Shown here: one piece after another, positions 3,774 to 13,725 of the stretch
Numbering within the stretch: the stretch's first letter is position 1
Layout of the letters: each line of letters opens with the position of its first letter
Assembly (NCBI RefSeq): GCF_002252665.1
Contig: NZ_NQKZ01000002.1
Coordinates: 62,001 to 126,000, forward strand
Direction of reading: 5' to 3'
Source of the DNA: Synechococcus sp. 8F6
GTDB lineage: Bacteria > Cyanobacteriota > Cyanobacteriia > PCC-6307 > Cyanobiaceae
DNA length: 64,000 nucleotides
The notes under the pieces: model-generated
The model's database searches: none
Told to the model about the DNA's origin: nothing
The model's input: only the letters and a program-made list of their open reading frames with translations
Translations under genes and position numbers: made by a program

Positions 3774-4274
3774 TCAATCCAGCGGAAACCGCAGCCGCGA
3801 AAACTGACGCCCGGCCTCGATGGCCCGCCTCTCGATTGCCACGGCTGAATCCAGCCACCCCTCACGCTCCAGAAACAACAACCAGGCGCGGGTGGTGACC
3901 TTGAGACAACCCGGCGGCAGCAGGAAGGTGGCGCGGGCGATCTTGTGGTCTTCAAACAGAAATACGCCTCGACGGGGAGGCTGCTCCATTGCCATGGCCT
4001 GCATCGTTTCTTGAATGGCCATCTCACCCAGATGGCGTTGGCGGCGCCCTGCTGCCCGGCGGCACACCTCTGTGCTCAAAACGGGGATCTGCTGATCGGT
4101 GACCCACGCAGCGATCTGCTGGCTTGTGGGTGTGTGGCTACGGGTGAGCTCCTCCAGCACCATGTCCACCATGGCCAGAGGCCAGCCCGGCTTCAGCAAC
4201 AGATCCAGACCATCGGCATAGGCCAGGGTGATCCAGGGCCCGGCATCAGGAATCAGAACGGGGGCGTCCCCCAT
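3774..4274 (-). CDS. PIN-like domain protein, probable toxin of a type II toxin-antitoxin pair
   Basis: The 166-residue protein begins with a PIN-type acidic strand (VLIPDAGPWITLA, Asp10), has the acidic helix VDMVLEEL near residue 40 and a later acidic segment FLFEDHKIARA. These are the positions where PIN ribonucleases place metal ligands. PIN toxins cleave RNA and are neutralised by a cognate antitoxin. The ATG overlaps the stop codon of the upstream RHH-like gene by one base (TGATG), the classic coupled arrangement. Which RNA it would cut cannot be told. The fold call rests on motif spacing, so a different nuclease-like fold remains possible. Confidence 0.7.
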   Translation of the reverse strand: MGDAPVLIPDAGPWITLAYADGLDLLLKPGWPLAMVDMVLEELTRSHTPTSQQIAAWVTDQQIPVLSTEVCRRAAGRRQRHLGEMAIQETMQAMAMEQPPRRGVFLFEDHKIARATFLLPPGCLKVTTRAWLLFLEREGWLDSAVAIERRAIEAGRQFSRLRFPLD

Positions 4275-4615
4275 CAGACCAGCTGCTGCAGGTCGCTCAC
4301 CATGGCTTCAGTGGCCTGATCGGCGAGGCGCGGCATCGGCAGGTGGGCCTGGGCCAGCAACAGGAACAGGTCCTCTTCGTGATCGAGATTGAGCTGCTCC
4401 ATCACCTCGATGTCGCTGATGCGGCCGAGGGCAAACCCCAGCAGCAACGTGGCATTGCGGTTGCCGTGCTGCTCGGCCAGCTCGCAGGTTTCCACCAGAT
4501 AGCGCAGCTCCGCATTGAGCAGGGCGCTGATCGAGGTGTCGTGCTGAGCCGCCAAAACCTTGGCCCGGCGCAGAAGATCGCGGTCCACGGAGGCGGTGAA
4601 GTTGACGCTGGCCAT
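4274..4615 (-). CDS. Ribbon-helix-helix-like antitoxin of the PIN pair
   Basis: The 113-residue protein opens with a short beta strand and two helices (VNFTASVDRDLLRRAKVLA, then ISALLNAELRYLV). This resembles the MetJ/Arc ribbon-helix-helix DNA-binding fold of antitoxins. The rest is acidic and helical (LDHEEDLFLLLAQAH), suitable for wrapping a basic toxin. RHH antitoxins usually repress their own operon. It lies directly upstream of the PIN gene with a one-base overlap and 57 bases downstream of the nuclease-helicase gene on the same strand. It could be co-transcribed with that gene or have its own promoter in the gap. Confidence 0.7.
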   Translation of the reverse strand: MASVNFTASVDRDLLRRAKVLAAQHDTSISALLNAELRYLVETCELAEQHGNRNATLLLGFALGRISDIEVMEQLNLDHEEDLFLLLAQAHLPMPRLADQATEAMVSDLQQLV

Positions 4616-4672
4616 GGAACCTGCTGCACCGATTTCAGTGTGTCACAGATTCCAGTATGGGGGTGCCGCTTT

Positions 4673-7600
4673 CTACGCGTTCGACGTGATGCTGCACAGC
4701 CGGTTGATCTGCTCGGCCTCCTCCACCGTGTTGGCAATCCCGGTGGTCAGGCCGGGTGAGCCCACCACGATCGAGAGACACTGAGCGCGGCTGATCGCCA
4801 CGTTGAGCCGGTTGGGCTCCAGCAGAAAGCCCAGGCCCCGTGGTGCGGCATCACCGTCACTGGCCGTGAGCGAATGAATCGCCACCGGCGCTTCCTGACC
4901 CTGGAACTTGTCGACCGTGCCCACCCGCGCCCGCTTGCCGAGGCGCTGCTGCAGACGGTTCACCTGCACGTTGTAGGGAGCGGTCACCAGGATCTGCTCC
5001 GGCCCGAGCACGCCTCGCTGCTCTCCGCCAGCACGCGCATGGCAGTAGCTGCCGTTGAGCAAGGCATCGACGATCTGCTCGATCCGATCGATCTCGGCTT
5101 CGCAGACAACGCTGCAGCCGCTGTGGGCCACGGGCTCAAACACCAACCCCTGCTCTGGCAAAGGCTCACCAGTCGCCGCCAGACAGCGCTGGCGCCAGCA
5201 GATCGCGTTGACGGCGTTGGCGGGATTGGCCTTGAGCCGGCCGTCATAGAAGAGCTGCGACACCATCGCCGTGAGCGAGGGTTCCATCCGCCAGCTGGTG
5301 GCCAGGAACACGCCGCGATCGTCAGGCACCACGTGGGCGCCCTGCATCAGGTACTCAAGGCACGAGCGCCCTGAGTCGCCGGGATGATCGGCCTGGGATG
5401 GTTGGGCCAGCTGCTGCTGATCGCCCACCAGCAGGATCGTTTTGGCGCAGCGGGCCATCACCAGCAGGTTGGCCAGCGACATCTGGCCTGCTTCATCGAT
5501 CACCAGCAGGTCGAATTGATCAGCCAGCTCCTCTCGGCAGAACATCCAGGCCGTGCCGCCCACTACCGCCATCTCCTCTGCGATCGCTGCTGGAGGCACC
5601 AAGGGGATGCCGCGCTCCTGCAGCACCTCTTCCTTCTTGCTGCTGCTGCACTTCACCACCCTCTCCCCAAGCCCCTGTTTCTGGCAGGTGGTGTGGGCCT
5701 TAATCAGCAGGTTGTTGATGGCGGCATGGCTATTCGAGCTGATCGCCACCCGCTTGCCGTCGGCCACCAGCTGGGCGATCACCTGGCCTGTCACCGTTGA
5801 TTTACCCGTCCCTGGCGGGCCCTGCAGCGCCAGGGTGACGCCGCTGGAGTTGGCAAGGAAGCTCGCCAGCCGGGGTGCAACAGAGCCCGGCTCAGCCGCA
5901 ATGGCGCTATTGAGGGTCACCAGCTCGGCAATGGGCTGGCGCTCCAGCAGCTGCAGCATCGCCGGCGGCAGTGGTTGGTTGCCGTCCAGCCATGCATTGG
6001 CCTGCTCCAGCAGGCTCTCGCGCAGCTTCTCGCTGATGTCGGCCGGCACCTTGATCAGCGATGTGAGCCGATCGGGGATGCCATCGCCAAGCCCATCGGC
6101 GCGGCGCTGATCGCGCTTTTTCCATGGCAGCTTCAAAGTGACGCGGCCGCGTTCGGCATCGAGCGACTCGACACTCACCTTCAGGCCGGTTTCGGGGATC
6201 TCCAGCTGCAGGCCCCGATCACCGCTGTCGGCCCGCAACTTCAGCGGCTGCGCCGGATCAAATGAAAAGGTGTGGTAATCGGCTCCGGTGAGCTTGCTCT
6301 CGCGCGGCTCCACACTTTTCCAGCGGGCCTCGGCGATCGCTTCTCCGTCGTCAACCAGATCACCCGGGCTGAGTTCGGCCCTGTTGCGCCGGTCGAAATA
6401 GGCCCACCAGGCCACCTTGGCCTCGCGGTGGTGGAAGGGCAGCAGCTGGGCCAACAAGCGCTGCACCCGCCAACTCATGCCTCGTTTCCCGCCTTCTTCC
6501 TGGGCGGCGAGGAGCGCATCTCTGGCGTTGGCAGGCGGATCGCTCTGCAGCTCCTCCGGCAGTTCGGCCAGCAGCTGGGCACTGAGTTGCTCCAGCGGCC
6601 AGGGCTCCTTGGGTTCCTGGCCCTCACTGCTCAGCTGCAGGTGTTCCTCCGGCAGCCCCTGCTCCCGCTTGAGATCGCGCAGCCAGTCATGCAGAAGGAC
6701 GGTCGACTCGCAGTCCTCGCGGTTGTAGTTCTCGATGTTCTTGAGCAGGGGACTACCAGCGGGCAAAACCCCGGGGCGATCGGGTTCGCCAGAGTTCTGC
6801 CAGTTGAGGTAGGCCACCACCGAGTCGCCGGCGTTGGTCACTTCTGCCTCGCGCTTCTCCATGTAGAGGTGCTCCACCTTCTTGATCGAATAGCTGGGCT
6901 CACCCAGCACGATCGAGCTAGTCACCACCGGCAGCAGGTCCACCAGCAGGCCAGAGCACAGCCACTCATCGATCACCGCTTCTCGGGTGCAGTGCTGCTG
7001 GGCCAGACGGCGCATCGCCGTCCTCTCGTAGCTGGCGTAGTGGTACACCCGCAGGCCCGGATGACGCGTACGCCGCGCTTCCACCCAGTCCACCCACTGC
7101 TCAAAGGCCTTCTTCTCCTCCACAGGGCTGTGGGCCCACCAGGCTTTGAACTGCGACTCGCCGCCAGGCACATCGCGATAGCAAGCGCCAAAGAGGTATT
7201 CGAGCTTTGTGCCAGCCACCGAGTCCTGGACGCCCTCCATGTCAAAACAGATGTCACCATCGTCAGCGGCAGGTAGGGCCGCCAGACCTTTGCCGTTGAC
7301 GACGGGCCTCAGGCGGTAGGCCGGCCGGCCATCGGCCCCAGCAGGGGTGAGCTGCAGTTCGGCCTGTTGCCGCAGTTCATGCAGCGTTTCAGGGTTCACC
7401 CCCGGTACCGATGTGCCGCCGGGCAATGCCGCGAGGGCGTCAATGGTGGTGATGCCAGCAGCGCGCAGCTTCTGCCGCTGGCTCTGGCGCATGTTCGCCA
7501 CCAGCATCAAATCGCGCTGATCGGCCAGCCGCTGCTCGATGAAGGCAGTCCAGCCGCCGTGGTCGCCGGGCATGTCCTCCGGAATGGCCTGTGGGTCAAA

Positions 7601-8224
7601 GGCTGCTCGGAAGGTGCGGTAGCGCTGGCGCAGCAGCTGATACCAGGCCCAGAACTGATCTGTGGCATAGCGCTGAAAGCGGCCACCACCGAGGTAAAGC
7701 TCAAAGTGATCAGGCCGCTGGCCCAGCAGCGGAGTCAGCAGCTCGCAGTAGGCCGAGGCCTGCACCAGAAAGGTGGTCTTGGGCTTGGAGGCGAGCTTGC
7801 ACTCGATTGGGATGTAGCTCCAGGCCCCCAGGGATGAGGGTTGTTCGATGCGGCGCAGCAGATCAGCTGAGCCCCGTAGTTCGTCGTTGCAGAGCGAGGC
7901 CTGGTGGATAAAGTCAAAGCCCTCTGCCATTGCTGCCTTTGTGGCCGCGTAGTCGGCGCTGTTCTGCTTGCCGGGCAGACGGGCAATGCGATGGCCCTGG
8001 GCTTCCAGCTTGGCGAGGAGCACCTGCTCATGGCGCAGACCATCGGCAAAAAGCTGTTGATCCAGCGCATTGGGCTCAGGTTTGGCTCCCTCAAAGAGGC
8101 CGCGTGCTTCTAGCTCTTCCCACCAGGCACCGATGAGCGGGCTGCGGGAGAAGAGTGAGAGCTTGCTGGGGGTGATGAGGGCCGGCTGCTTTGAAGCATC
8201 CGTGTTTCTTATGAAGCTGCTCAT
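4673..8224 (-). CDS. RecB-like nuclease fused to a DNA2/NAM7-type superfamily 1 helicase (TM0106-like)
   Basis: This is a 1183-residue multidomain enzyme. Residues 1-220 form a RecB-like PD-(D/E)XK nuclease (GSADLL at 118, IECKLA with E141 and K143, QASAY at 155). Residues 320-520 form an RNase H-like domain (FDMEG with D328 and E330; YNREDC at 500). Residues about 760-1183 form an SF1B helicase, with GPPGTGKS at 802, DEAG at 910, SWRMEP at 977, DKFQGQE at 1105 and NRLNVAISRA at 1138. All catalytic motifs look intact. TM0106-family fusions are known but their role is not established; DNA end processing or defence are the usual guesses. It starts 9 bases after the stop of a second PD-(D/E)XK nuclease gene. 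Confidence 0.88.
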   Translation of the reverse strand: MSSFIRNTDASKQPALITPSKLSLFSRSPLIGAWWEELEARGLFEGAKPEPNALDQQLFADGLRHEQVLLAKLEAQGHRIARLPGKQNSADYAATKAAMAEGFDFIHQASLCNDELRGSADLLRRIEQPSSLGAWSYIPIECKLASKPKTTFLVQASAYCELLTPLLGQRPDHFELYLGGGRFQRYATDQFWAWYQLLRQRYRTFRAAFDPQAIPEDMPGDHGGWTAFIEQRLADQRDLMLVANMRQSQRQKLRAAGITTIDALAALPGGTSVPGVNPETLHELRQQAELQLTPAGADGRPAYRLRPVVNGKGLAALPAADDGDICFDMEGVQDSVAGTKLEYLFGACYRDVPGGESQFKAWWAHSPVEEKKAFEQWVDWVEARRTRHPGLRVYHYASYERTAMRRLAQQHCTREAVIDEWLCSGLLVDLLPVVTSSIVLGEPSYSIKKVEHLYMEKREAEVTNAGDSVVAYLNWQNSGEPDRPGVLPAGSPLLKNIENYNREDCESTVLLHDWLRDLKREQGLPEEHLQLSSEGQEPKEPWPLEQLSAQLLAELPEELQSDPPANARDALLAAQEEGGKRGMSWRVQRLLAQLLPFHHREAKVAWWAYFDRRNRAELSPGDLVDDGEAIAEARWKSVEPRESKLTGADYHTFSFDPAQPLKLRADSGDRGLQLEIPETGLKVSVESLDAERGRVTLKLPWKKRDQRRADGLGDGIPDRLTSLIKVPADISEKLRESLLEQANAWLDGNQPLPPAMLQLLERQPIAELVTLNSAIAAEPGSVAPRLASFLANSSGVTLALQGPPGTGKSTVTGQVIAQLVADGKRVAISSNSHAAINNLLIKAHTTCQKQGLGERVVKCSSSKKEEVLQERGIPLVPPAAIAEEMAVVGGTAWMFCREELADQFDLLVIDEAGQMSLANLLVMARCAKTILLVGDQQQLAQPSQADHPGDSGRSCLEYLMQGAHVVPDDRGVFLATSWRMEPSLTAMVSQLFYDGRLKANPANAVNAICWRQRCLAATGEPLPEQGLVFEPVAHSGCSVVCEAEIDRIEQIVDALLNGSYCHARAGGEQRGVLGPEQILVTAPYNVQVNRLQQRLGKRARVGTVDKFQGQEAPVAIHSLTASDGDAAPRGLGFLLEPNRLNVAISRAQCLSIVVGSPGLTTGIANTVEEAEQINRLCSITSNA

Positions 8225-8233
8225 GCTTTGACA

Positions 8234-9487
8234 TCAGTCCTCCGACAAGTTCTTGAGTGGCACCAGTCGGCCGCCCTCAAGCATCAGTTTTTCGTCCACT
8301 TTGTTAACAATCTCGCGGACTCGAGGCCATATCTCATCGATGGCAATCCGAATTGGCTCCTGGTCACCTGGCGCCTCGTCGGTATTTCCTGGCTTGATCC
8401 TAATTCGAATTTGTGAGATCCAGTTTTTTGCCCTGATGTTGTCCTTGCGGGCCGGATCCTGCACTTGATCGATGGCCTCACGAATAATCGACCTCGCAAG
8501 GGGCGCACCGCCCGGCGAGATCACGGTTGCGAAGTAACCCTCTACAGAACCCTTCTGCTCCCACAGACGAATCTCGAACAAGAACTGCTCACGACCTTTC
8601 CATCCTTTGGCATTTTTTGGAATAATTTCATTGAGACCTCCCGTCAGAAAGCGGACATAGCAGTTGCTGCATGAACCCATCTTCCAGCCTTCGTCTAAGA
8701 CTTTTTGCTTGATATAGTCACAGGCGATTGTTGCCGCGTCAGGCTTGTTGTCATAGATAAAGTCTAAAATTTCTTTATGGCTTTCGTAAAGCTGCCTGGC
8801 CAGGGCGTTAAGCGGGCTTTCTTTCATGAGATTCGTGCAGAGGTTGTCTAGGTAGTCACTGATGTAGATGCCGACACTTGGAGCCATCGACTCCCTGTGC
8901 AGCTTTAGTATTCTCTCAAGGTGCAAAGAGATTTGGTGATATGAGTAATTGATATAGTTTGCTTGCTCGCCCTCGTCTCCTGGGTCGCGCCCATCAGGGG
9001 TCAGGTAGACGAACGTCTTTCTGCAAGAAGGGAAGCTTTTATTGACAATTTCCCTATAGCGAGCCAGCTGTTTCTGGCTGTCAGAGCTGTCAACTTTGTT
9101 TTCGATGCATACTGCCAAGTCGTCAGCGACGAGGAGGATATCAATATTGCGCCACTCGCGCCTAACTTCGACTCGCCTGGCATTTATGTCTTGCATTCCT
9201 ATTTCGTTGACGGACTCGGGGCTGTCTAGAAGGGAGACGTCCCGAAGAAAGCGCTTCAGAAAGAGCGATCCAAGGCCATGGGTCCCCTCGGGGTCGAGTA
9301 GCCAGGCCAGAAAGTTGGAATGCCTGATCTCCATTCGCTCGATACCGAGTACGGAGAAGATATTCGGATCCTTCAGCTTGAGATCCAGCTCATCAAAGCC
9401 TTCGCTATTCACGAGCTCGGAAAACTGATCGATTCGGACTAGGCGTTCTTTATCTAGCTCCAATTTAGCCTCGTGCTGATAGTTCAA
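8234..9487 (-). CDS. PD-(D/E)XK nuclease family protein (PF14281-like)
   Basis: The 417-residue protein carries the signature of the PDDEXK_4 nucleases. HSNFLAWLLDP is at residue 56 with E53 just before it. WRNIDILL near 113 contains D116, IENK is at 128-131 and a QL pair follows at 140. Members are often found among restriction and anti-phage genes, but their substrates are mostly unknown. The start is a TTG at 9487; no better start is visible, so the true N-terminus may differ slightly. The gene and its flanks (about 8.25-9.5 kb) are clearly richer in A+T than the neighbours, a sign of lateral transfer. It is only 9 bases upstream of the nuclease-helicase gene. Confidence 0.85.
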   Translation of the reverse strand: MNYQHEAKLELDKERLVRIDQFSELVNSEGFDELDLKLKDPNIFSVLGIERMEIRHSNFLAWLLDPEGTHGLGSLFLKRFLRDVSLLDSPESVNEIGMQDINARRVEVRREWRNIDILLVADDLAVCIENKVDSSDSQKQLARYREIVNKSFPSCRKTFVYLTPDGRDPGDEGEQANYINYSYHQISLHLERILKLHRESMAPSVGIYISDYLDNLCTNLMKESPLNALARQLYESHKEILDFIYDNKPDAATIACDYIKQKVLDEGWKMGSCSNCYVRFLTGGLNEIIPKNAKGWKGREQFLFEIRLWEQKGSVEGYFATVISPGGAPLARSIIREAIDQVQDPARKDNIRAKNWISQIRIRIKPGNTDEAPGDQEPIRIAIDEIWPRVREIVNKVDEKLMLEGGRLVPLKNLSED

Positions 9488-9534
9488 TAGGTACGGTTCG
9501 GGTCGTGATTTGTTTACTGGCGGGCTATTTGCCC

Positions 9535-9909
9535 TTAGGCCTTCCTGTAAATCGTTTCGATTGCCCCTGCCTCTCGAAGTCCATCGGAATCAAGCTGCGG
9601 CACATAGAGCATCATCGTCCCCATTCTGCGGTGGAGCTGCGGTAGCAGTCCCTCGCCTTGCCAGAGCTTCTGCTTGGCGCGCACAAAGTCCACCACATCA
9701 GAGCAGCTCCATACTCTCTCTGAATAGCTAGCGTCGGTGGGATATAGTTCCAGTAGTTGATCTAACGTCACAGCCTGAACCACCGGCGAGAGTGCCTCGT
9801 CAAACACCAGGTAGTGGAAGGGACTGTCAATCGCCAGGTCCCGCTCTCTGTAGAAGAGATCGATATAGGCCAGCCGCTCCTCGCGGCTGATTGGGCTGAT
9901 AGCGCTCAT
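9535..9909 (-). CDS. Conserved-looking small protein of unknown function
   Basis: The 124-residue soluble protein has no recognised domain. It is rich in acidic and aromatic residues (REERLAYIDLFYRERDLA near the N-terminus; YPTDASYSERVWSCSD in the middle) and has no signal peptide or membrane segment. The chosen ATG at 9909 overlaps the stop of the phosphatase gene by four bases (ATGA), so translation is probably coupled. A longer frame starts at 9939 but would run deeper into the phosphatase gene. Its position between the phosphatase and the nuclease suggests an accessory role, but no function can be assigned. Confidence 0.65.
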   Translation of the reverse strand: MSAISPISREERLAYIDLFYRERDLAIDSPFHYLVFDEALSPVVQAVTLDQLLELYPTDASYSERVWSCSDVVDFVRAKQKLWQGEGLLPQLHRRMGTMMLYVPQLDSDGLREAGAIETIYRKA

Positions 9910-10571
9910 GCCGCCACCTCCAGTTTGTGCTCTGCCCAAGGATCAATCGGCAGGGCGGTGAGTCGGCCGCTCACGAACGCCCCCGTGTCGATCCCAATCC
10001 GGTGGGGCAGCTGGGCGACGCGGTAGTTGCGTTGGAAGGTGTGCCCGTGCACCACCGTGTAGGGCAGGCCGTGATCGCGGTTCAAGAAGGGTCCGCGGAT
10101 CCACAGCAGGTCCTCTGCCCGTTGCTGCCTCAGCGGCACCCCCGGCCGAACGCCGGCGTGCACAAATAGGTACTCGCCCCGCTGTGCCGTCAGCGGCAGG
10201 CTCTCCAGCCAGGCCTGATGCTCACGGGCCACCGGCAGGAAGCCTGCATTGCCTCCGTTCCACTGCCATAGATCAGTGGCGTGATCGGGCTCCTCCTCTG
10301 CAAGCGCATCGAGCAGCATCTGCTCGTGGTTGCCGCGCAGCACGGTTACCCCAGCCAGCCCATAGACCTCTGGATTGGCCTGCAGCTCACGCACCAGCTC
10401 GATCACCTGCTGGTCACCATCGGGTTCAGGCGAGCGGTCGATCAGATCCCCTAGGAAGATCAGCTCGGCTCCACTGCCCAGATGGGGCCAGATGGTCTCT
10501 CGCAGCAAGGTGGCGCAGCCATGCACATCGCCGATCGCCACCACCGGTGCCTTGCGCTCAGACGTTGTCAT
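9906..10571 (-). CDS. PPP-type metallophosphatase (serine/threonine phosphatase or Ap4A hydrolase-like)
   Basis: The 221-residue product has the complete metal-binding signature of calcineurin-like PPP phosphatases: GDVHG at 14-18, GDLIDR at 41-46, RGNHE at 79-83, then FVHAGVRPG and VVHGH near the C-terminus. This is the compact lambda-phosphatase/ApaH-like form. Substrates could be phosphoproteins or dinucleoside polyphosphates; the sequence does not decide. The ATG at 10571 lies 14 bases inside the end of the vWA gene. A longer frame from 10613 lacks support because it would overlap that gene further. The tight coupling with a vWA protein suggests a phospho-regulated complex, which is inference. 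Confidence 0.88.
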   Translation of the reverse strand: MTTSERKAPVVAIGDVHGCATLLRETIWPHLGSGAELIFLGDLIDRSPEPDGDQQVIELVRELQANPEVYGLAGVTVLRGNHEQMLLDALAEEEPDHATDLWQWNGGNAGFLPVAREHQAWLESLPLTAQRGEYLFVHAGVRPGVPLRQQRAEDLLWIRGPFLNRDHGLPYTVVHGHTFQRNYRVAQLPHRIGIDTGAFVSGRLTALPIDPWAEHKLEVAA

Positions 10572-11808
10572 CGCCGCTCTCCCACACGTTGAGGCTGGAG
10601 CGCAGCGATTCACGCCGCAGGCGTTTGCGGCTGAGGTTGCGGTCCTGGGTCATCAGTTCCTTCTTCTCCGCCAGCAGTCGGCGTTCCCTGGTGATGGCAT
10701 CGCTCTGGGGCAGACCCTTCAGGCGCTGGTCGATCGCTTCAATGCTCGCCATGGCGGCCCGCAGATCACCCCGGTCGAGTTCCTCGATCGCCAGGCGCCG
10801 TTCGCGGTTGGCCCTCAGCAGCGCCAGCTGTTCAGCCACCTCTGGATCAACCTCGAGGCCCTCCAGTTCCGCCTCGGGTTTCACCGGCAGTGTCAACTGC
10901 TCGATCAGCGTCTTGCGGCCCTCCTGATCTGGGCTATCCCAGGCCAGCCGCACGCTGGCGATCTCCTGGTTCGGCATCCAGGCCGGCAACTGCAGCCGCA
11001 CACCCACCGAGAGCTCCTGGCCGTAGCGGAGGTTGGGCAGCTGGTGATTCCCAGCGCTGGTGAGCGGTAGATCGTTGAGCAGGTCCACCAACTCAGCCCC
11101 GTGCTTGGCACGGATGCCAATGCTCACCTTGCGCCCAACCGTGCTTGCCAGGCCCTGCAGTTCGCTGGCGTAGAGATCTGCCAGCTGCTTCGGGGATTCG
11201 ATCTGGGCCAGGGTGCCGTCGCCGGCGGCAGCCATTGCCCCCATCAGGTCCTCATCAAAGCCGCTGCCCAGGCCAAAAGCGCTGGTACTGATGCCGCGCT
11301 GGGTCAGGCCCTCCACCTTGGCTGCGATCGCTTCGGCATCGGTGAGGCCCTCGTTGGCCTGGCCATCGGAGAGCAGCAGCACCCGATTCAAGCCAGCTGG
11401 ATCGAGCTGATTGGCTACCTGCGTCGCACCGGCCAGCCAGCCGTCAAACAAAGCAGTGCAGCCACCGCTGTGGATGGTGTTGATGGCGCTGATAAACAGG
11501 AGCGGATCACGCACCGGCTGGGAGGGCACCAGCACGTTCACCTCCTCGTCAAACGTGACGATCGCCAGCCGGTCGCGCTCGGTGAGCTCACCCGCAAGGA
11601 ACCGGGCGGCCTTACGGGCATGGCTGAGCTTGCTGCCAGCCATTGAGCCAGAGCGATCGATCACCAGCGCCAGGTTCAGACCCGGACGCTCCTTGAGTTG
11701 CATCGGAGGGTGTTCAGGCGAACGCACCGTGATCAGCAGATCGAGGGTGGTGGCGCCATCGGCGGCCACCGCCGGCCGCAGCGGCCGGAAGTGCAGAGAG
11801 GGGTTCAT
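10558..11808 (-). CDS. von Willebrand factor A (vWA) domain protein
   Basis: The 416-residue protein carries a vWA domain from about residue 45 to 215 with an intact metal-ion-dependent adhesion site: DRSGS at 51-55, the Thr of GGCTALFDG and the Asp of LLLSDGQANEG. A beta-rich region follows. The C-terminal 100 residues are helical and highly charged (ANRERRLAIEELDRGD, then a Lys/Arg-rich end), like a coiled coil. No signal peptide is evident, so it is probably cytoplasmic, as in bacterial chaperone-like vWA proteins that work with partner enzymes. It lies 52 bases after the MerR gene and overlaps the phosphatase gene by 14 bases. Confidence 0.88.
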   Translation of the reverse strand: MNPSLHFRPLRPAVAADGATTLDLLITVRSPEHPPMQLKERPGLNLALVIDRSGSMAGSKLSHARKAARFLAGELTERDRLAIVTFDEEVNVLVPSQPVRDPLLFISAINTIHSGGCTALFDGWLAGATQVANQLDPAGLNRVLLLSDGQANEGLTDAEAIAAKVEGLTQRGISTSAFGLGSGFDEDLMGAMAAAGDGTLAQIESPKQLADLYASELQGLASTVGRKVSIGIRAKHGAELVDLLNDLPLTSAGNHQLPNLRYGQELSVGVRLQLPAWMPNQEIASVRLAWDSPDQEGRKTLIEQLTLPVKPEAELEGLEVDPEVAEQLALLRANRERRLAIEELDRGDLRAAMASIEAIDQRLKGLPQSDAITRERRLLAEKKELMTQDRNLSRKRLRRESLRSSLNVWESGDDNV

Positions 11809-11860
11809 GGGTCTATCGGGGGTATCGGGTTGGTGTTTGTTCAGGGCTGATCAGAGGCGC

Positions 11861-12523
11861 TCAGCTCTCGCTCTCGAGCTGCTCGCGCAACCGCTCAAGC
11901 AGGCGGGCCAGCCAGGCTTCGCGGCGCTTGCCTGCTGGTGGGATCGAGGCCGATTCGCTCAGATGCAGCTCCACCCCTGGCGCCAGCGAGAAGCGATGCC
12001 AGCGGCTGGAGGCGACGTTGGAGCGCCCAGCCGATCGGGTGGAGAGAGATCGCTGAGGAGACAGGGAGGCGGAGCTGCTACTCAGGGGTGAGCCCAACAG
12101 CGGCAGCAAAGAAGCGCTGCTGCCTGGGGAGCTCGATAGGGATCGTTCGCCCTGCAGGCTCTGCAGATAGGACAGGGCCTCCTGCTGCTCTGCCGAGGGG
12201 GATGGCTCCTCCAGCTGCAGCAGCTGCTGGCCGAGCTCCTCGTCACTGCAAGTGACCAAGGGAGCGATCGCCGTGAGGCTGAGACCGCGCCTGGCCAGGG
12301 CACGGATCAACAGCAGCTGCAGCAAATGGCGCTGGCCATACACAGCACGGCGGCGGTCTTTGCCGGGTCGATCGATCAGGCCCTCGGTGGCATAAAGGCG
12401 CACCGTGCGTGGCGTGACCTCCTCCCCCAGACGCTCACCGGCCAGCGCCAGCAGCTCCTCCAGCCCGTAGAGGGAATCGGAGCCCAGGGAGGCAGCCGTC
12501 GAGAGGGAAAGGGAGTCAGCCAT
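11861..12523 (-). CDS. MerR family transcriptional regulator
   Basis: The 220-residue product has a MerR-type winged helix near residues 20-90. GLEELLALAG is followed by VTPRTVRLYATEGLIDRP, YGQRHLLQLLLIRALARRGLSL and an acidic helix. The middle is a Ser/Leu-rich low-complexity linker (runs such as SLSSSPGSSASLLPL). The C-terminus is a short basic-acidic helix (WLARLLERLREQLES). No metal-binding Cys pattern is seen, so the effector is unknown. A longer frame exists upstream, but the ATG at 12523 gives the natural MerR N-terminus. The gene leads a co-oriented run that begins with the vWA gene and is likely to control it. Its own promoter carries a dyad (see 12531-12559). Confidence 0.85.
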   Translation of the reverse strand: MADSLSLSTAASLGSDSLYGLEELLALAGERLGEEVTPRTVRLYATEGLIDRPGKDRRRAVYGQRHLLQLLLIRALARRGLSLTAIAPLVTCSDEELGQQLLQLEEPSPSAEQQEALSYLQSLQGERSLSSSPGSSASLLPLLGSPLSSSSASLSPQRSLSTRSAGRSNVASSRWHRFSLAPGVELHLSESASIPPAGKRREAWLARLLERLREQLESES

Positions 12524-12530
12524 GCACCAA

Positions 12531-12559
12531 TGGTTACACGCTTGCACTGCAAGTGTCAA
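12531..12559 (-). promoter_or_regulatory. Probable autoregulated promoter of the MerR gene
   Basis: On the minus strand a consensus TTGACA (12559-12554) and TAACCA (12536-12531) are separated by 17 bases. The spacer contains a perfect 13-base dyad, CTTGCANTGCAAG (12541-12553). A dyad between the -35 and -10 elements is the hallmark of MerR-controlled promoters, although 19-20 bases is the more usual spacing. The MerR start codon follows 7 bases after the -10, so the transcript would be nearly leaderless. A related sequence sharing CACTGCAAGTG occurs inside the MerR gene at about 12243-12257. Confidence 0.5.
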
Positions 12560-12597
12560 GCAACGAGGTAGGGTGGTCATGTTCCGCCGTGATCCCG

Positions 12598-12825
12598 ATG
12601 TCCTTTCCCCTGCTTCCTCTGGCGGCCGCTGTTCTCCTTGCCCAGGCCAACCCGCTGCTGATCCCCGCCAAAAACGGCAACACCTGCCCTGGTGGCACCA
12701 GCTACGGCGGCGCCGGCTACTGCAAGGTGCGCAACAACGCCCAATACGTTTCGGCGAAAAACGGCACCACCTGTCCCGGTGGCACCTCCTACGCCGGCGC
12801 GGGGTACTGCAAAGTTCGTCAGTAG
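12598..12825 (+). CDS. Small secreted protein with two Cys/Gly-rich repeats
   Basis: The 75-residue product starts with a signal peptide (hydrophobic PLLPLAAAVLLA, likely cleavage after AQA). It then has two near-identical 22-residue repeats at residues 24-45 and 53-74. Each contains NGxTCPGGTSY and a second Cys eleven residues after the first (AGYCKV), so each repeat could hold one disulfide. The mature protein is little more than the two repeats. The function is unknown; an extracellular or periplasmic structural or binding peptide is possible. It is divergent from the MerR gene and shares the 75-base control region with it. The HD protein gene follows 10 bases later. An upstream in-frame start at 12553 would disrupt the signal peptide. 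Confidence 0.75.
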   Translation: MSFPLLPLAAAVLLAQANPLLIPAKNGNTCPGGTSYGGAGYCKVRNNAQYVSAKNGTTCPGGTSYAGAGYCKVRQ

Positions 12826-12835
12826 GCCAGACGCC

Positions 12836-13498
12836 ATGACCATCACCCCCCGTTTTGGCGAAGCCCTGCTCTGGGCCGAGGCCCTGCACCGCAACCAGCG
12901 CCGCAAAGGCAAAAACGTGCCCTACGTCTCCCATCTGATGGCGGTCAGCGCCATGGTGTGGGAAGACGGCGGCACAGAAGACCAGGCGATCGCTGCCCTG
13001 CTCCACGACGCCATCGAGGATGCGGGCCAAAGCCATGCCTCCATCGCAGAGCGCTTTGGAGCGGTGGTGGCCGACATCGTGCGCGATTGCACCGACACCA
13101 GCGCTGATACCGCGCCTGGGGAGAAAGAGCCCTGGCTGATCCGCAAAACCCGCTACGTCGCTTCCCTGGCCGCCAAGACGGTGCAATCCCTGCTGGTCAC
13201 CGCGGCAGACAAAGCCCACAACGCCGGCGACATGGTGCTCGATGCCCGCAGCCAACCCGACATGTGGTGCAAATTCAATGCCGGCCTCGATGGCTCAGCC
13301 TGGTATTTGCTGCGTATGCATCAGCAGCTCAAGCAGCGCTTGCCCCACAGTCGATCCGTGGCACGGCTTGGTGAAGCGGTTGAGGAGATCCTGTCCAGCG
13401 AGCCCTACCGGCGCATCGTGCCTAATGGCATCGCACCTGCGGTGTGGGCTGCGGGCTATGCCGAGCGCAACAACCACTCCCAGGAGAACACCCCATGA
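12836..13498 (+). CDS. HD domain phosphohydrolase resembling MESH1/SpoT-type (p)ppGpp hydrolases
   Basis: The 220-residue protein has the pattern of single-domain (p)ppGpp hydrolases. An N-terminal HRNQRRKGK helix leads to VPYVSHL (His33), LLHDAIED (HD at 57-58, ED at 61-62), IVRDCTD, a RKTRYV segment and ADKAHNAGD supplying the last metal-ligand Asp. There is no synthetase or ACT domain, so it would act as a stand-alone hydrolase of alarmone or related nucleotides. Specificity cannot be read from sequence. The ATG at 12836 was chosen because earlier codons lie within the preceding repeat-protein gene. The 3' end overlaps the following broken gene by four bases (ATGA). Confidence 0.8.
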   Translation: MTITPRFGEALLWAEALHRNQRRKGKNVPYVSHLMAVSAMVWEDGGTEDQAIAALLHDAIEDAGQSHASIAERFGAVVADIVRDCTDTSADTAPGEKEPWLIRKTRYVASLAAKTVQSLLVTAADKAHNAGDMVLDARSQPDMWCKFNAGLDGSAWYLLRMHQQLKQRLPHSRSVARLGEAVEEILSSEPYRRIVPNGIAPAVWAAGYAERNNHSQENTP

Positions 13499-13725
13499 CC
13501 CCGTTTCGTTACTGGGTCAGCGAGAGGTACGGAGTGATGCTCCAGCACACCACTGCCGCAGGCATGGGGCATCCCTAAATTTGGGGCGATGGGCGCTGGC
13601 CGCCAGGCTCTGCCTACGTGATGGATGCCATCACCGGCCTCGGAGAAGACCTCTGGAGCTCAGGCGACTCAGCCGATGAATGCGATCAGGCCACCGCCGA
13701 GCCAGCAGCCCAGCTCCCGCAAAAA
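13495..13725 (+). pseudogene. Broken small gene interrupted by an in-frame TAA
   Basis: An ATG overlapping the HD gene stop opens a frame of 27 codons (RYWVSERYGVMLQHT) that ends at TAA 13576-13578. The same frame continues directly as a coherent protein-like sequence: WGDGRWPPGSAYVMDAITG, then GEDLWSSGDSADE, with a final acidic/Ala-rich stretch near 13725. Without the stop this would be one protein of about 75 residues, so a single nonsense change is the simplest explanation. The family is not recognised with certainty. Alternatives are a genuine 27-residue peptide, or a downstream start at the GTG at 13618. Confidence 0.5.

Follow-up and report, generated by a model that had tools for sequence, protein, structure and literature searches.

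A nuclease-helicase gene with an exchangeable upstream nuclease gene in Synechococcus sp. 8F6, a candidate site of defence-gene exchange

In the 64,000-nucleotide stretch of Synechococcus sp. 8F6 DNA analysed here (the window; contig NZ_NQKZ01000002.1, positions 62,001 to 126,000), a gene for a PF14281-type nuclease lies 9 bases from a gene for a TM0106-type nuclease-helicase. Do the two proteins form one machine, or do their genes share a place in which defence genes come and go? A preliminary description of this DNA had proposed a joint DNA-processing machine and lateral gain of the first gene. The answer that we prefer, with a probability of roughly 0.55, is a defence-gene exchange site, in which a mobile nuclease-helicase is combined with an exchangeable upstream nuclease of restriction type, and in which the effects of the two would be additive without an obligate complex. 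This reading draws on the domains, the intact active sites, the foreign composition, the absence from sister genomes, the swapping of the upstream gene and the recurrence of the helicase gene beside many defence genes, all established at the level of sequence. The two genes and their parts are as follows.

4673-8224, minus strand: TM0106-type protein gene, 1183 amino acids, ATG start (matches to TIGR03491, PF13482 and AAA_11/AAA_12)
Residues 65-159 of the TM0106 protein: motif residues of the RecB-like PD-(D/E)XK nuclease
Residues 325-515 of the TM0106 protein: RNase_H_2 DEDD-type exonuclease
Residues about 790-1160 of the TM0106 protein: UPF1/DNA2-like superfamily 1 (SF1) helicase
8225-8233, minus strand: gap of 9 bases between the two genes
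8234-9487, minus strand: PF14281 (PDDEXK_4) nuclease gene, the putatively exchangeable upstream gene, 417 amino acids, TTG start (matches to PF14281 and PDC-S26)

Both open reading frames (ORFs) lie where the preliminary description had placed them. The product of the upstream gene matches PF14281 with an expectation value (E) of 2.4e-33 and 116 bits, against a curated cut-off of 22.3, and the PADLOC candidate family PDC-S26 over residues 21-402 (E 2.5e-115); PDC in this label stands for 'phage defence candidate'. E53, D116, E129, K131, Q140 and Y144 are all present and invariant across 21 aligned sequences, namely the window protein and 20 relatives hand-picked out of 35 ORFs. The protein thus retains the D, E-x-K and Q-x3-Y nuclease residues (D116, E129, K131, Q140, Y144) by which membership in PF14281 was judged. 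A sequence search of the PDB found no relative of this protein, and the AlphaFold2 model of the single protein had a mean pLDDT (predicted local distance difference test) score of 35.9 and was not used. A pattern scan of genomic and viral contig collections found no relatives with the single protein and matched one viral contig with the alignment; by protein search, relatives were found in 41 plasmid records and 3 phage records. Five of the plasmid regions were opened, one of them without annotation, and a TM0106 gene was listed in none of the four annotated ones.

The TM0106 protein matches its family model, TIGR03491, with 201.8 bits against a cut-off of 97.45. This family, which we take to be COG2251, carries only the label 'putative nuclease'. 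Pfam matches were obtained to RNase_H_2 (PF13482, E 3.3e-18) and AAA_12 (E 1.2e-26), and sequence matches in the PDB, all in the helicase part, to UPF1, SMUBP-2 and DNA2. Conservation was assessed in 54 sequences including that of the window; loci L039 and L200, which have no full-length helicase gene, were excluded from this count and from the tree described below. In all 54 sequences, the RecB-like nuclease residues G118, D121, K143, Q155 and Y159 and the DEDD-type residues D328, E330 and D504 are invariant; E141 (kept in 83%) and H65 (87%) of the RecB-like domain are less strict. The protein has the Walker A, DEAG and further motifs (III, V and VI) of an SF1 helicase, and the central residues of motifs I, II, III, V and VI vary little or not at all (D910 is kept in 96%). 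The alignments of 21 and 54 sequences therefore bear out the earlier statements that both proteins retain their PD-(D/E)XK residues and that the helicase keeps all its motifs; the third nuclease domain, RNase_H_2, had been missed.

The two genes differ in composition. In a plain 1-kb profile of G+C content (GC), the two lowest of the 64 bins lie at 8-9 kb (0.522) and 9-10 kb (0.538); the next has 0.602. Compared with 37 window ORFs (helicase gene included), a pool selected with a codon score that started from four host genes, so that atypical genes are missing from it and the z values are inflated, the PF14281 gene has a GC of 0.502 and a GC at third codon positions (GC3) of 0.605 vs 0.677 +/- 0.031 and 0.850 +/- 0.038 (z -5.7 and -6.4), and in codon usage it lies at a greater distance from the pool than any of the 37 ORFs (z 5.7). 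The PF14281 gene is compositionally foreign. The helicase gene has a host-like composition (GC 0.645, codon z 0.9). That the first gene is richer in A+T than its flanks, as had been remarked, is borne out by the GC profile.

Both genes are part of a block that is missing from the same place in sister genomes, where mfd and ctpA are no more than about 1.3 kb apart, without the block, in 11 of the 12 loci fetched, the twelfth being interrupted by a contig end. The block and its remaining mapped features are the following.

4657-13707: block of about 9.05 kb that sister genomes lack between mfd and ctpA (blastn borders vs L081 and L083)
9535-9939, minus strand: orf134, left border of the slot described below (tblastn and ORF calls)
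9906-10613, minus strand: metallophosphatase gene
10558-11808, minus strand: VWA protein gene

Similarity to the two sister loci L081 and L083 ends at 4584 or 4656 and restarts at 13708 (blastn), indicating that about 9 kb were added in the window genome. The block contains HD-like, merR-like, VWA, metallophosphatase, orf134, PF14281 and helicase genes (among the window genes, HD, merR-like and PIN-like are names given by eye only, as is HsdS-like for an ORF of locus L238). The codon usage of orf134 is atypical too, with z 5.5 on the same inflated scale. No direct or inverted match of at least 11 bases was found at the block borders as an insertion footprint. PF14281 was not detected in the other 15 genomes of the genus searched, some of them incomplete; in that search, 3 of 99 genomes pass the cut-off, the window genome included. 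The proposal of lateral gain is supported by the lack of a match in these 15 congeners, by the block-free sister loci and by composition.

Two of the 16 genomes of the genus have a full-length TM0106 helicase, and four others gave short, weak matches only. The window genome has two copies. G004 has one, 94% identical, at a different locus, where DNA similarity is confined to the gene (window 4686-8176) and an RmuC homologue of low GC (0.51) lies upstream; that RmuC might be an ordinary core gene was not supported, as only two of the 16 genomes have it. Against the closest helicase gene (L037), similarity sets in only at about codon 16, just within the gene. The second copy of the window genome (L038, contig C58, 7640-11239) is about 52-55% identical and is followed by a 251-amino-acid ORF without match and then by an NAD-dependent DNA ligase gene.

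If the two proteins formed a dedicated machine, with a logic like that of nuclease and helicase defence pairs, the gap of 9 bases, the shared strand and the two intact active sites would be accounted for. Recurrence of the pair was examined from both sides. Of 386 genomes of the phylum searched for PF14281, 59 were above the cut-off, and the helicase was sought in those 59 and in G052; it was full-length only in G000 and G052, and in G052 it lies on a different contig from PF14281. Adjacent PF14281 and TM0106 helicase genes thus occur in 1 of 60 PF14281-carrying genomes, that of the window alone. From the other side, a profile of the 21 aligned proteins was run against six-frame translations of 63 other helicase loci (45 cyanobacterial ones of at most 19 kb each, with less than 1 kb upstream in L039 and L174, and 18 plasmid regions); a PF14281 relative was found in none of them, and the window alone matched. 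A fixed two-gene defence system of PF14281 and TM0106 helicase does not recur in these sets, and the composition indicates different histories of the two genes. We consider the dedicated machine very improbable. Of the joint machine first proposed, the dedicated pair is not supported by these counts, whereas a helicase that works alongside varied nucleases of the slot may be retained. The preliminary description had also named what would speak against it, namely composition equal to the chromosome and no recurrent pairing elsewhere; the composition differs, in its favour, and the screen for co-occurrence went against it.

What does recur is the place upstream of the helicase gene. The order merR-like, VWA, metallophosphatase, slot, helicase is found in seven loci of four other genera, and the slot is filled differently. 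It holds UzuA in L190 (E 1.3e-44), GmrSD in L183 (PF03235, 2e-38; PF07510, 4.4e-22) together with a 334-amino-acid ORF without a match over the cut-off, and McrBC in L189 (PF10117, 3.7e-70), on the opposite strand. In L180, L191 and L192 it holds an ORF of GC 0.45-0.48 that we tentatively call Mrr-like; Mrr_cat matched in L192 only, with E 0.045, below the cut-off, and not in L180 or L191, and a PDB sequence search with these ORFs found no relative. L187 has no large gene in the slot, just a 147-amino-acid ORF. Three of the seven loci have an orf134 homologue next after the metallophosphatase gene, nearly full-length in L183 and L191 and partial in L189. Seven loci of four genera and the window thus have the same borders and different genes between them, which is the pattern of a defence hotspot, with four of the seven slots lacking a firmly matched defence gene (the three Mrr-like ones and the one without a large gene). 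Upstream of the TM0106 helicase, eight loci (6428-6871 in L187, and seven more) encode a small protein of about 150-190 amino acids, at a distance of at most about 50 bases in five.

Similarity between close helicase genes ends at the gene start or shortly inside it. Within pairs of close helicases, identity is 81-97% over the 90 bases at the start of the gene and 27-50% over the 60 bases in front of it (ungapped; 14 of 16 listed pairs were comparable, and L191 gave no anchor). In a helicase tree made by a quick method, with hand-given labels that mix upstream and downstream genes, neighbours differ among close branches: PF14281 and RmuC; Mrr-like, GmrSD and none; HsdM and SbcD-like; DUF499 and SNF2.

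Genes of defence type are found on the downstream side as well. In several loci of other genera, the helicase gene and the ORF behind it share 1 to 4 bases at the helicase stop codon (ORFs of related loci were taken with a simple script rather than a gene finder, each from its first start codon, which makes gaps and overlaps approximate). The overlapping gene is DruE-like in L176 (4.4e-100), with a protein in L181 that is 98.7% identical to that of L176; it is DUF499/HmaC in L177 and L178, SNF2/C3a139 in L179, HsdM in L186 and L188, and SbcD-like in L182. L176 and L181 come from two different genera, and their adjoining helicase genes are far less alike over part of their length. SbcD-like genes after the helicase were seen in L182 (Pfam) and in L202, L203, L204 and L260 (similarity or annotation), in some loci followed by an ATPase gene, and also on an alphaproteobacterial plasmid. 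In L209, a match to a type IIG/type I restriction-methylase (1.9e-85) lies 193 bases downstream of the helicase. Upstream of the TM0106 gene, L194 has an SngC/BrxHI-like helicase (1.7e-205) and L195 a GajB-like helicase.

The TM0106 protein of the window matched 171 plasmid records, 59 of them over at least 80% of its length. In the 18 plasmid regions, hand-chosen among the 40 matches listed, the neighbours include McrBC, ubiquitin-like genes, BREX brxL with PDC-S11, Abi and SbcDC-like genes; on a Vibrio plasmid, a NucS-like PDC-S11 gene lies 6 bases upstream of the helicase. A divergent WYL regulator gene is found upstream, with at most one gene between, in 8 of the 18 regions, all eight alphaproteobacterial (L095, L099, L258-L260 and L262-L264). 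A term search of PMC9122601, on WYL regulators, finds no RecB, TM0106 or PF14281.

These neighbourhoods bear on a second alternative, which casts the TM0106 protein as a processing enzyme of general use, working together, physically or functionally, with whichever defence nuclease or operon is adjacent, PF14281 being its current partner. Since the helicase gene recurs beside other restriction-type nuclease or defence genes, cooperation with the current slot nuclease is conceivable. The alternative would explain why, in several loci, the leading gene of one or another unrelated defence type overlaps the helicase gene by 1 to 4 bases, why the helicase gene stands only 9 bases behind the nuclease gene in the window, why close helicases have differing neighbours, and why genes for nucleases or restriction are repeatedly seen upstream (PF14281, RmuC, GmrSD, McrBC and the NucS-like PDC-S11). 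Co-residence in an island would by itself look no different, the slot is without a large gene in one locus and has its genes on the opposite strand in another, and many neighbours have no defence match; contact between the proteins is hypothetical. We regard this alternative as tentative, about half as probable as the exchange site.

Could the two genes be ordinary DNA repair genes that came together by chance? The combination of RecB-like, DEDD and SF1 domains is also found in repair enzymes, and the ligase gene downstream of the second copy and the SbcD-like gene after the L182 copy would suit such a role. The helicase is patchily present, at full length in 2 of 16 genomes of the genus and, at E 1e-100 and with some copies partial, in 48 of 400 genomes of the family; it is also carried on plasmids and has defence-island neighbours. 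An origin as chance-assembled repair genes is accordingly unlikely in our view.

Traces of helicase genes near intact ones point to a possible route of exchange. In L181, with the helicase on the plus strand, positions 4754-4902 are a 149-base copy of the helicase 5' end (1.6e-60), 1.7 kb upstream of the intact gene, and the 1.7-kb stretch between is A+T-rich (GC 0.44). The L181 helicase gene is itself a mosaic relative to that of L176, 75-84% identical over about 200-1400 and 90-98% elsewhere. Weaker 5' remnants are present in L183 (53 bases, 6e-9, between its two inserts) and L178 (44 bases, 6e-9, 4.7 kb away upstream), and 3' remnants lie downstream in L180, L183, L187 and L190 (4e-11 to 3e-19); a 277-base match in L200 is a piece of its own broken gene. 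Altogether 14 of 89 flanks match at 1e-4, those besides the named loci being near background, and controls on the same 89 flanks gave 1 match for the other strand, 6 for the gene middle and 1 for the wrong end (best 3e-6). In the window, no remnant of the helicase 5' end was found above background (best E 0.002). Remnants of the L181 type fit insertion aided by homology at the ends of the helicase gene, and the 149-base copy is possibly a footprint of how inserts arrive. On a wider and doubtful view, to which we give about one chance in four, the TM0106 protein would be a mobile helper serving bacterial defence at large, working with nucleases and defence operons that can replace one another, and its gene would perhaps be the homology anchor by which defence genes are imported, as L181 may illustrate.

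Several observations weigh against the exchange site as we describe it. The McrBC genes of L189, on the opposite strand, mean that a single operon is no rule. The region downstream of the metallophosphatase gene varies also in loci without the helicase, so that the slot belongs to a wider variable region. Many neighbours are not of a known defence type: L211-L213 have an ATP-dependent ligase gene (L212 scanned), L040 has transport and hydrolase genes, and L193 has a dynamin-like gene. No PADLOC match was found for 7 of 10 upstream ORFs at 0.01, the Mrr-like ones included, or for 9 of 10 further neighbour ORFs at 1e-5; these are raw counts for the neighbour ORFs that were scanned, rather than an excess over a background density of defence genes. 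The host also has a RecB-like gene (best 8.4e-129, below the family cut-off), so that the TM0106 helicase is not necessarily needed for degrading DNA ends. The idea that the host lacks RecB and hence depends on the TM0106 helicase was rejected on this ground; the RecB family also matches in 12 of 14 control genomes.

The exchange site suggests a possible order of events. On this reading the resident part is a mobile three-domain enzyme made of RecB-like nuclease, DEDD-type exonuclease and SF1 helicase, and the slot just upstream is filled by differing, usually A+T-rich genes, mostly of restriction-nuclease type, here PF14281. The PF14281 protein is most likely a single-gene restriction-type nuclease that would cut foreign or modified DNA; the TM0106 protein, encoded 9 bases later in the same direction, may load on DNA ends, unwind and degrade them. 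Their effects would add up without an obligate complex. Co-transcription, anti-phage activity, a preference for modified DNA and the order 'cut, then degrade' are what we infer for the pair. The presence of the helicase beside McrBC, GmrSD, DUF499/HmaC, DruE-like, HsdM, BREX and WYL genes makes a direct test of protection worthwhile.

Adjoining mfd, a short two-gene pair (3774-4274 and 4274-4615) lies next to the block. Its upstream gene has a weak RelB/ParD-type match below the cut-off, and the other is PIN-like by eye. The pair is also found between mfd and ctpA in L081 and L083 and is therefore probably older than the block.

We finally compared the locus with known systems. Gabija embodies the idea of nuclease plus helicase defence. 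Neither window protein matches GajA or GajB (PADLOC, E 0.01), and the pair does not recur, so that the locus is not Gabija. The helicase part of the TM0106 protein matches MkoA of Mokosh (2.7e-50). The best MkoA stretch covers residues 881-1176 only; every best PADLOC stretch of this protein lies in the helicase half, from residue 791 onward, leaving the N-terminal nuclease domains outside. Without a full-length MkoA match, and with no partner gene among three neighbour ORFs (3774-4274, 4274-4615 and 9535-9939, the only neighbours scanned here, none of which matched a PADLOC model at 0.01), the locus is not Mokosh either. In the open-licence literature, we found no report of a PF14281/PDC-S26 or TM0106/COG2251 gene as a tested defence gene, and passages of a preprint on YprA helicases (PMC12458937) do not concern the TM0106 family. 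The architecture of the TM0106 family is the one noted in passages of PMC3985635 for COG2251, with PD-(D/E)XK-like and RNase H-like exonuclease and tandem AAA domains; these passages treat COG2251 as a predicted exonuclease and are silent on defence or swapped neighbours. The PF14281 protein resembles the PDC-S26/PF14281 nucleases in its match over residues 21-402 and its invariant nuclease residues, and differs in having a TM0106 helicase alongside, seen only here among the genomes and loci searched. The closest parallel in the slot itself is type IV restriction. McrBC, GmrSD and Mrr are type IV restriction systems, and the slot is filled in related genomes by McrBC, by GmrSD and tentatively by Mrr-like genes. 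PF14281 represents another nuclease family, for which dependence on modified DNA is suggested only by analogy with its slot-mates; the slot thereby offers a way to propose functions for nucleases such as PF14281 from the genes that they replace.

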